This document shows, in pieces, positions 26,264 to 46,311 of a DNA stretch of 64,000 nucleotides. The translations under genes and the position numbers were made by a program. Position 1 is the first letter of the stretch; each line of letters starts with the position of its first letter. Source of the stretch: an uncultured Eubacteriales bacterium (GTDB lineage: Bacteria; Bacillota; Clostridia; Peptostreptococcales; Anaerovoracaceae); NCBI GenBank assembly GCA_902786815.1, contig CADADV010000007.1, positions 40,684-104,683 of the forward strand, read 5' to 3'. The notes below the pieces were generated by a model that was not told where the DNA came from, searched no databases, and was given only the letters and a program-made list of their open reading frames with translations.

Positions 26264-26319
26264 CACAAAAAAGTAATGGGTTGCGTCCTACTTATTAGTA
26301 CTACGCAACCCATTACTTG
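26264..26319 (-). terminator. Very strong intrinsic terminator of the repeat transcription unit
   Basis: On the minus strand AAGTAATGGGTTGCGT (26318-26303) pairs perfectly over 16 bases with ACGCAACCCATTACTT (26286-26271). TTTTGTGTTTT follows. It lies just before the metallopeptidase gene on the same strand, so it closes an upstream transcript that is not that gene. Confidence 0.88.
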
Positions 26320-26453
26320 TCAACTTGTAACACCCTCATTTCTGTTACCTCGCTTTCTGCGGCCTGATCTTCCGTGCTTCGGGCTTCCTGTTCCCCCGTG
26401 GATTCTACTTCGGATTCCTGCACCTCTACGTTTCTACGATTCCCGGATAAACT

Positions 26454-27080
26454 TCGCTAATTCTCCGATTCTACGTTAGTTCCGTATTGTGACTTTTGCT
26501 TCTGTGCGTCCCTAATTCTACGATTCTTCGCTAGTTCCGTACGTTGAGATTCATGCATCTGCGCTTCGCTAATTCTTCAATTCTACGTTAGTTCCGTACA
26601 CGAGACTCCTTGCAATTGCGCTTCGCCAATTCTTCAATTCTACGTTGGTTCCGTACCTGAGATTTCAGATTTGTGCTTCGCCAATTCTTCAATTCTACGT
26701 TGGTTCCGTACCTGAGATTTCAGATTTGTGCTTCGCCAGTTCTTCAATTCTACGTTGGTTCCGTACCTGAGATTTCTGCAATTGTGCTTCGCCAATTCTT
26801 CGATTCTTCGTTGGTTCCGTACGATTGTACTATCTGTACTCTTCACGTACTGCATTGAGACTCTTGCATTCGCGCTTCGCCAATTCTCCAATTCTACGCT
26901 GGTTCGGTTCTCTAAGACTTCTCACATCTGCGCTTCGCCAATTCTTCGATTCTATGCTGGTTTCGCTCTCGAGATCGTTCCTGTCGCTTCGGTGTTCCGC
27001 CAATTCTTCGATTCTATGCTGGTTCGAATCTGTTTTGCGGGTTTCGCTAATTCTTCCATTCTTTCGCTAGTTCCGCTCGC
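26454..27080 (-). repeat. Array of 11 degenerate ~55-bp repeats with co-varying ends
   Basis: Copies begin near 26454, 26510, 26564, 26621, 26676, 26731, 26788, 26874, 26932, 26995 and 27044. On the plus strand the conserved part is CGCYAATTC, TTCNATTCT and ACGYTRGTTCCG. Y is T with R as A in copies 1, 2, 3 and 11, and C with G in copies 4-10, with no exception. The stretches between copies (15-54 bases, mostly 18-25) are more variable but also related (GAGATTTCAGATTTGTG-like). Confidence 0.85.
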
Positions 27081-27120
27081 CGAATCCTGCACTTGTTCTC
27101 TCTGTAGATCTTCACGCCGC

Positions 27121-27135
27121 TATTCAGTTTTCAAG
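27121..27135 (-). promoter_or_regulatory. boxA-like antitermination element
   Basis: The minus strand reads CTTGAAAACTGAATA, close to the TTTGAAAACTGAA boxA sequences found in leaders and spacers of Firmicutes rRNA operons, where NusB and S10 bind. It lies about 45 bases into the predicted repeat RNA. No rRNA gene is in the window. Confidence 0.6.
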
Positions 27136-27185
27136 GTGTATATTTTTCAGGCTCTCGGTCTTTCAACCTCCCTCCTGGTGACATT

Positions 27186-27214
27186 AAAATACACCCCCTC
27201 CCGGAACAAGTCAA
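27186..27214 (-). promoter_or_regulatory. Promoter of the repeat RNA
   Basis: On the minus strand TTGACT (27214-27209) is separated by exactly 17 bases from TATTTT (27191-27186). An A-rich stretch lies upstream. No coding gene follows on this strand before the repeats. Confidence 0.65.
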
Positions 27215-27469
27215 TAGGTTCGGCTCATGTCTTTTGTTGTTTTTATGTACTGAAAATACAACGCTGTACAATGCCTTCACGCGTAAAAGTATCCATAAAA
27301 AAATCTTTCACACCCCGGCAGAAAAAACGATCAAAAGTATAGATCAAAAGTATAATTATTACTTGTTGATGATACGTCATCGTTGTAACATTATCATAGG
27401 CAAGAATATAACTGTAAGTTGCCCGACCTTGGCTGGATATTCGAAGACTAAAATCAGGGAGGTGTATAG
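27215..27469. other. AT-rich intergenic region with 13-bp tandem duplication and palindrome
   Basis: GATCAAAAGTATA is repeated in tandem at 27329-27341 and 27342-27354, followed near 27367 by GATGA-TACG-TCATC, a 5-bp inverted repeat. They lie upstream of the small membrane protein gene and may be its promoter and operator. No gene is seen. Confidence 0.45.
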
Positions 27470-32320: not shown

Positions 32321-32743
32321 ATGGGTTTACTTGACAATCTGAAAGACAAAGTTGATGAAGTTCTGGAAAAGACGGACATCGACGATAAAATCAAAGAAAA
32401 AGCTGACGAAGTTCTGGAAAAGACGGATATCGATGATAAGATCATCGCAGGCGCAAAGGGTCTGAAGGATAAGGCCGGCGATGCGCTGGACAAGACGGAT
32501 CTCGACGATGACATCAAGGGCAAGGTAAAGGATCTGGTGGACAAAGCCGATGACGTCGTCGATACTGCGCTCGAGAAGACAAGCGTTGATGACAAGCTCA
32601 AAGAAAAGGTTGACGGTGTTCTGGAGAAGACAAACTTTGACGAAAAGATCAAAGAAAAAGCGGACGAAGTACTTGGCAAGAAAGACGTCGTCGAAAAAGC
32701 CGAAGAAATCGTTGAAGAAAAAGTCGAAGAGCCAAAAGAATAA
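32321..32743 (+). CDS. Charged amphipathic helical-repeat protein (LEA/CsbD-like)
   Basis: A 140-residue, highly charged protein without Cys or Trp, built of imperfect 19-25-residue repeats around (K)EKADEVLEKTDIDDKI. The pattern predicts long amphipathic helices as in LEA-like or plasma-membrane-stress proteins. There is no signal or membrane segment. The promoter is close to consensus, AAAGGAG precedes the ATG and a strong terminator follows, so expression may be high. It is enclosed by two Uma2 nuclease genes on the opposite strand. Confidence 0.75.
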   Translation: MGLLDNLKDKVDEVLEKTDIDDKIKEKADEVLEKTDIDDKIIAGAKGLKDKAGDALDKTDLDDDIKGKVKDLVDKADDVVDTALEKTSVDDKLKEKVDGVLEKTNFDEKIKEKADEVLGKKDVVEKAEEIVEEKVEEPKE

Positions 32744-45717: not shown

Positions 45718-45954
45718 CTCGAATACCTGATGTCCTCCTTTTTTCTTATCTTATCAATACGGCACGGATTATTCAACTTCTCGTCAGAATTTGTAAAGGC
45801 ATGTGATCGTCGTGCGAGTTCGGAGTTGGCGGGGTGGGCACCGTCATTTGCCCCATGCAGCAAGGCCGTTAATGTCAAAGTACAAAAGCCAGGCATCTGA
45901 ACCGTTGATACTTCGTAAATCGTTTGTGCTTCAATCCTTCAACCACTAGCAAAA
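45718..45954. other. Intergenic region, no gene seen
   Basis: About 240 bases upstream of the MazG-like gene. GAACCGTTGATACTTCG at about 45899 faintly resembles the repeat that follows. Apart from that, I see nothing convincing. Confidence 0.4.
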
Positions 45955-46311
45955 CGTAGTATCAAGGGTTTCAAGGGCCAGCCGTTGGTTTCAGGCGAGC
46001 TGTGTACTGTCCTCAACCAACGGCCTGACGTAGTATCAAGGGTTTTAGGGGTCAACCGTTGGTTTCAGGCGAGCTGTGTACTGTCCTCAACCAACGGCCT
46101 GACGTAGTATCAAGGGTTTTAGGGGCCAGCCGTTGGTTTCAGGCGAGCTGTGTACTGTCCTCAACCAACGGCCTAACGTAGTATCAAGGGTTTCCGGGGT
46201 CAACCGTTGGTTACAGGCGAGCTGCGAACTGTCCTCAACCAACGGCCTAACGTAGTATCAAGGGTTTCCGGGGTCAACCGTTGGTTACAGGCGAGCTGCG
46301 GACCGTCCTCC
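45955..46311. repeat. Tandem array of a 74-bp repeat (four full copies and one partial)
   Basis: Units start at 45955, 46029, 46103, 46177 and 46251, each exactly 74 bp; the last is cut at about 46311. Each begins CGTAGTATCAAGGGTTT and contains the inverted pair CCGTTGGTT / AACCAACGG, 9 bp, around a conserved loop (CAGGCGAGCTG..ACTGTCCT). An inner AGG/CCT pair is possible. Copies differ mostly outside the stem. The array ends 13 bases before a consensus promoter. Confidence 0.93.

Follow-up and report, generated by a model that had tools for sequence, protein, structure and literature searches.

We found that the minus strand of the window (the whole stretch of 64,000 nucleotides analysed, from a gut bacterium) carries, from 27214 to 26267, a promoter, a boxA-like 16-mer, 11 degenerate units and a long terminator stem with T residues, which together look like a complete, autonomous transcription unit with a boxA of the rRNA type. 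The preliminary description took this unit for a non-coding structured RNA, perhaps a sponge, in which no frame is open. Its points on structure and boxA stand, but the non-coding label falls, as the predicted RNA ends in a conserved eight-codon ORF (26339-26313, just 5' of the terminator) with a wider spread than the array (29 vs 13 of 49 genus genomes). Because of this difference in spread, and because 18 of the 33 ORF loci lack units, we suggest, at a probability of about 0.45, that the locus is a micro-gene whose rRNA-style leader varies and is at times giant, that its ORF is translated repeatedly in the manner of mccA, and that the array is a binding or stabilising part of the leader. The locus is real and conserved; the covariance models of Rfam 15 gave no match in the window at gathering score, in line with the earlier statement that no described family was recognised (of six sub-threshold matches, with E up to 5, five fall on the terminator hairpin). 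Among open-licence PMC papers, four peptide strings gave no paper, and no title shown by the other searches described this RNA.

The ORF (ATG AGG GTG TTA CAA GTT GAC AAG TAA; 26313-26339, minus strand) was identified by its conservation and would encode the peptide MRVLQVDK. It is preceded by an SD-like GAGGT (26347-26351) located 7 nt 5' of the start codon, and purine-rich sequence lies 5' of the listed ORFs, the best being AGGAGG in L004, L005 and L037. A pattern search allowing up to three mismatches placed the ORF at 29 positions in 25 of the 49 genus genomes, and the reversed pattern gave none in all 49. The exact pattern occurred in 25 stretches of genome_contigs (84,980 species), 24 of which are loci already known in the genus and the 25th of which is L072, and in none of viral_contigs. 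A model of the SD, ORF and terminator detected 33 loci in 29 of the 49 genus genomes, all with E below 1e-9 (one of them, L048, is cut at the contig start), and gave weak matches in 9 of 300 genomes of other genera (E 3e-5 to 0.008), the best of which, L113, contains no such ORF by eye. This search and that with the model of the unit were run with the stricter filters applied above 40 genomes.

For the quantification of the coding signal, codon changes were counted on a minimum spanning tree of 32 of the 33 loci (26 distinct sequences; the decayed L046 was left out). In frame, 33 synonymous and 20 non-synonymous changes were counted, compared with 6/45 and 7/45 in the other two frames, and random placement of the changes gave a mean synonymous fraction of 0.32 versus the observed 0.62, which none of 2000 placements reached. 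The ends of the ORF are exchanged as well: among the 32 copies the start is ATG in 18, GTG in 10, TTG in three and, in one, TGG with an ATG one codon earlier, and the stop is TAA in 30, TAG in one and TGA in one. The peptide consensus is M-R-[VK]-L-[QMR]-[VILFG]-[DN]-[KRN], with K or R at the C-terminus of 31 of the 32 and Asn in the remaining one. Judged by these codon changes, the ORF is coding, its peptide sequence is conserved, and it represents a putative octapeptide gene kept between related species. Arg2 is AGG in 32 of 32 copies and the other codons vary freely; this invariant AGG may reflect a second constraint, on the nucleic acid, at AUGAGG. The intrinsic terminator (26267-26318, minus strand) begins in the last sense codon and includes the stop codon. 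The terminator stem with a T-run of the preliminary description is thus present, with two 22-nt arms (26318-26271) that are 91% complementary; a simple terminator scan did not have this stem among its calls. Over 26 sequences, 97.7% of the 260 cells of the core stem are paired, and double changes occur at five of its ten pairs. The decayed copy, L046 in G016, keeps the terminator and the last seven sense codons, but no start codon, upstream element or leader can be made out in it.

The array recurs in relatives: units are present in 13 of the 49 genus genomes. A DNA search of 61 genomes (the window's own, 36 of the same genus and 24 of the same order) gave matches in 13, all in the genus, and the unit model gave weak matches in two of 300 genomes of other genera (E about 1e-3). 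Twelve of the 13 genomes contain 6-11 units and G002 contains one; the number is 7-11 in 11 of them, the other two being G263 (six units, its contig beginning within the array) and G002, which is degenerate. All 13 unit-bearing genomes also have the ORF. At the 18 array-less loci the leaders are shorter and of other sequence, many of them sharing a 5' hairpin by eye, and G002, G003 and G017 each possess one array-bearing and one array-less form. The distance from the -10 box to the ORF ranges from about 120 nt (L108) to 846 nt (the window). Since the part shared by the 33 strong loci in 29 genomes is the ORF with its terminator, the array is found in a subset, and leader length varies, we consider the array an elaboration of the leader and not the constant part. 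The ORF module gave no match in 20 of the 49 genus genomes, six of which are 97-100% complete, and the locus is therefore not essential to the genus. When these 20 genomes were searched for the metallopeptidase-like protein that neighbours the locus, six matched, and the five fuller loci among them (L116-L120) showed loose, chance-like pattern matches and no convincing unit, upstream element or ORF.

The promoter named in the preliminary description, TTGACT-N17-TATTTT, is present on the minus strand at 27214-27186. It is one of five promoter-like sites in the scan, and because shuffled sequences gave 2.4 on average, the scan alone is little proof; what proves the promoter is its conservation in the array-bearing loci. 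In all 12 of these with the promoter on the contig the spacer is 17 (the scoring favours spacers near 17), its letters varying between loci by eye, and an A-rich conserved upstream element, TACATAAAAACAACAAAAGACATG (27226-27249, minus strand), has a 15-nt core ending 19 nt 5' of the -35 box, a distance that is likewise the same in 12 of 12. In five of the 18 array-less loci, our script found no promoter pattern. Alignment of ten array-bearing RNAs showed, by eye, a 5' leader hairpin CAGG...CCUG (27148-27177, minus strand), in which CAGG/CCUG alternates with CAGAA/UUCUG between RNAs. Further downstream, GCGGC (27116-27120, minus strand) is present in nine of the ten and absent from L009, being conserved without covariation. 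It is predicted to pair with GCCGC (26363-26359) and so to close the array domain, and this pairing is unproven. The GCCGC belongs to the post-array linker (26359-26439, minus strand), which in the same alignment also contains the conserved GGAAGCCC. Another long-range pairing, of UGUCAAC at the 5' end of the RNA with GUUGACA in the ORF, was predicted and then dropped, because its pairs are lost in L009 and L010 and short forms do without it (by eye).

The boxA-like element of the preliminary description, CCTTGAAAACTGAATA, is located at 27136-27121 on the minus strand, and all 16 of its letters match a 16-mer in the 16S-23S spacer of the same-family genome G119, where it sits between the 16S with tRNA and the 23S (L155). 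We made this comparison in 16 genomes (the window's own plus 15 others from its family or order) because no 16S match was found in any of the 49 genus genomes. Ten loci from the boxA search were given to Rfam, and rRNA was found in six. The boxA pattern at two mismatches also matches unrelated places, and the reversed control matches in most of the 16 genomes, so that only exact or near-exact copies inside rRNA operons were counted. G038 and G045 have an element similar to that of the window in the 16S leader, and G049 has one in the spacer. The identity with the rRNA operon of G119 supports, at the level of sequence, the assignment of the element as an rRNA-type boxA. Its CYTTGAAAA is kept in eight of the ten aligned array-bearing RNAs, with one mismatch in L002, and is not recognisable in L008. 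Among the 18 array-less loci, 11 contain ACAACTGAATA in the middle of the leader, three more contain it with one mismatch, and four have none. Two other matches were noticed in the course of this search: an exact copy of CCTTGAAAACTGAATA near position 1500 of L142 (G126, same family), in a stretch without an Rfam match, is possibly another boxA-led non-rRNA transcript, and CTTTGAAAACCGAATA in L157 (contig 14 of G000, the window's own genome), shortly 5' of an AGGAGG and an ATG, is probably a chance match to the pattern.

The array extends over 26440-27083 of the minus strand. The matches to the unit model are at 27083-27030, 27035-26983, 26973-26921, 26915-26863, 26827-26775, 26771-26719, 26716-26664, 26661-26609, 26604-26552, 26547-26495 and 26492-26440. 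The 11 degenerate repeats first described are thus confirmed as 11 copies of a 20-nt core, spaced by 55, 57, 57, 55, 55, 56, 88, 58, 62 and 47, and TRF detected them as two blocks (scores 438-439 and 173). Chance is excluded, because the core pattern matches ten times on the minus strand of the window and never on the plus strand, and because all 11 units found by the covariance model in the window's genome are at this locus. ORFs of 83 aa (minus strand) and 204 aa (plus strand) overlie the array; they look spurious, as most distances between units are not divisible by three, and coding across the array was rejected on the same ground, the frame being broken. The window contains two other repeats. 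At 45953-46310, a 74-bp unit is repeated 4.8 times in tandem (94% matches), every copy containing the inverted repeat CCGTTGGTT...AACCAACGG; this stretch overlaps the beginning of a 690-aa ORF called from 46281. Positions 32342-32444 hold two copies of a 51-bp unit, 88% alike, within a small lysine-rich ORF (32321-32743).

To characterise the unit, 94 candidates were collected; removal of five false or incomplete rows and collapse of duplicates left 71, and seven units of L009 were added by hand, giving 78 rows, 77 of them distinct, from 12 loci (the units of L037 duplicate those of L004). Selection did not demand covariation, since the core pattern accepts either purine or pyrimidine at the 3' stem letters. 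In the 77 distinct units, the first pair of the stem is C-G in all 77, the second is U-A in 41, C-G in 35 and U-G in one, the third is A-U in 53, G-C in 17 and G-U in seven, and the fourth is G-U in 34, A-U in 22 and G-C in one, being unpaired in 20. For the four-pair stem, the proportion of paired cells (93.5%), the number of double-change cells (52) and the covariation score (0.518) were each reached by none of 500 shuffles, and controls in which the stem was slid scored 0.20 or lower. Two of the five measures, the number of pairs with a double change (two; 489 of 500 shuffles) and of further pair types (six; 499 of 500), did not exceed the shuffles, which is to be expected of such a short stem. 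These controls leave relatedness among the units unsettled, and a tree was therefore built without the stem columns; on this weak tree of 48 columns, about six and five double changes map to the two variable pairs. The same two pairs rank first and second in an unsupervised MI-APC scan of the unit alignment. The RNA-type covariation claimed for the window thus holds across the 77 units, and the division of its own 11 into four CTA/TAG and seven CC/GG copies is correct, ten of them having been seen again in a second scan.

Inside the stem, the loop is nearly invariant (CNNAGAAUYGNAGAA). Outside it lie an internal loop, mostly GGAA/CGAA, and a partial second helix in which 58.2% of cells are paired, with G-C in 60 of 77 at columns 6-45. 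The predicted folding stability was no better than that of shuffled sequences for any of the five single units tested (z -0.40 to 0.45) or for the whole RNA (z -0.40). Our interpretation is that the motif depends on non-canonical pairs or on a protein.

In ten of the 13 unit-bearing genomes, the locus adjoins a small HExxH protein and is usually flanked by ilvE and, at the other side, by proB-proA, the exceptions being G017, G003 and G002. This protein has no Pfam match at 1e-5, and from its motif we take it to be metallopeptidase-like. The array-less loci are elsewhere; four have a DUF3048 gene as neighbour, and at three of the four an ABC ATPase is called on the other side. Among the 18 neighbour proteins scanned (14 of 16 picked from loci, and four of the window), we recognised no toxin family, no modifying enzyme and no constant partner. 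Genes for modification, export or a receptor were not seen to accompany the locus consistently. The downstream genes are unrelated to each other (amino acid kinase, YgjP, ABC ATPase, permease, CpsB, PALP, pyridoxamine oxidase, peptidase C26, POR and disulphide reductase), and those of the window (metallopeptidase-like), L074 and L067 have no Pfam match at 1e-5.

These observations bear on what the product of the locus might be. The RNA itself could be the product, an abundant scaffold or sponge with 11 protein-binding units, in which the ORF would park a ribosome for 3' protection or termination. The strong covariation with the nearly invariant purine loop, the 7-11 units in 11 of the 13 unit-bearing genomes and the rRNA-type boxA agree with such a role, yet 18 of 33 loci have no array and their leaders have other sequence, and a parked ribosome needs no conservation of amino acids; we regard this explanation, the main rival of the micro-gene, as rather unlikely. 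The position of the stop codon at the base of the terminator stem would also suit a leader-peptide attenuator, in which ribosomes translating the ORF would open the terminator and thereby turn on the gene behind it, and that gene is often close and co-oriented (the putative metallopeptidase gene in the window, proB, ygjP, an ABC ATPase gene). However, the genes downstream are unrelated and at times on the other strand, the next called gene being opposite at L081, L037 (the same locus as L084) and L063, which makes attenuation less likely, and the synonymous codon variation is unlike that of leaders with regulatory codons. Attenuation therefore appears improbable to us.

The length of the ORF, its MR start and the terminator directly 3' of it resemble mccA, raising the idea of a precursor for a peptide-nucleotide antibiotic like microcin C. 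MccB is a ThiF-family member and needs Asn. ThiF-family genes, unclassified, are present in all 49 genus genomes, but they are also present in the genomes without the ORF, the single match in the window's genome is on another contig, and no ThiF domain was found in the 18 neighbour proteins scanned; with no ThiF gene linked to the locus, and with K or R ending nearly all of the peptides, microcin C chemistry is very improbable. A repeat array followed by a terminator also recalls type III toxin-antitoxin RNAs, CRISPR arrays and CsrB-type sponges. No known toxin family was found among the downstream genes tested, the units are degenerate and the spacers alike, in contrast to CRISPR, and CsrA, the best known protein target of a sponge, was found in none of 25 genus genomes, compared with 13 of 16 same-order genomes above cut-off, so that a CsrA sponge was rejected. 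We give this group of explanations hardly any probability. Replacement of tmRNA was rejected as well, ordinary tmRNA being above cut-off in 33 of the 49 genus genomes, and the window's own genome having its match, of 192 bits, on a different contig.

Among known systems, it is mccA that the 3' module resembles in its build. With mccA of microcin C7 (seven codons) it shares an ORF of 7-8 codons with a Shine-Dalgarno sequence and a terminator downstream, and, as in mini-genes of this type, an ORF within 2-8 codons, an SD-like site and a terminator directly downstream occur together. ORFs of 2-8 codons are described as open to repeated translation without ribosome dissociation, the seven-codon mccA ORF having a fitted n_rec of 71 rounds without dissociation in vitro, and a terminator is placed between mccA and mccB (PMC6495379). 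McC precursor sequences are reported as not conserved (PMC6495379), unlike the peptide sequence here. The locus differs further in its long rRNA-like leader, boxA and repeat array, and in having no mccB or pump next door. The order of promoter, leader and (C/T)TTGAAAACT-type boxA is like that of an rRNA operon leader or 16S-23S spacer, but what follows is a unit array and a micro-ORF, and no rRNA. CsrB/RsmZ sponges contain many short stem-loop units in one untranslated RNA; the units here are of about 55 nt with an AGAAUYGNAGAA loop, not simple GGA loops, and an ORF lies 3' of them. ToxI-type antitoxins are tandem RNA repeats ended by a terminator, a likeness shared by our locus, but no toxin gene was recognised downstream and the unit spacing is irregular. 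The locus resembles OLE, ROOL, GOLLD and raiA/ModT as a predicted long non-rRNA transcript in anaerobic Bacillota, and differs from them in consisting of an array and a micro-ORF and in being found in one genus only.

For the micro-gene with a variable leader, we propose the following course of events. RNA polymerase would start at the TTGACT promoter under the conserved upstream element, pick up a boxA antitermination complex and so read the 840-nt untranslated leader without Rho termination. The transcript would then form the 11 short units of stem and purine loop and would end at the strong terminator right after the ORF. The SD-like site may load ribosomes onto the ORF, and these probably translate it repeatedly without leaving, as for mccA in vitro, given an ORF of just eight codons whose stop codon is part of the base of the terminator stem. 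The product would be fMRVLQVDK or a close variant, and this peptide would be what selection preserves, with the array serving as a protein-binding or stabilising platform that was expanded in some species and is missing in others. Features that appear to count for the micro-gene are the shared ORF and terminator, the synonymous bias, the exchange of start and stop codons, the identity of the boxA and the covariation of the units. The invariance of AGG, the ORF-less genomes, the lack of a constant partner gene, the weak folds and the loss of boxA in L008 count against it. A bolder and doubtful form of the proposal would make the locus a new class of gene, in which an eight-codon gene on an rRNA-style transcript has an array RNP that stabilises the mRNA or delivers ribosomes, and the octapeptide has a target within the cell, such as a regulator or the ribosome.

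Genes of eight codons are missed by gene finders, and to our knowledge very few genuine ones exist outside mccA and leader peptides. The ORF described here has conservation at the codon level, leads no single constant operon and is tied to rRNA-type signals and to a new covarying RNA motif. Other sequences can be screened for its signature of a boxA, an untranslated leader, an SD and a tiny ORF that runs into a terminator. If our reading is true, it would become directly testable how small free-standing genes can be and what tandem RNA motifs in leaders bind.
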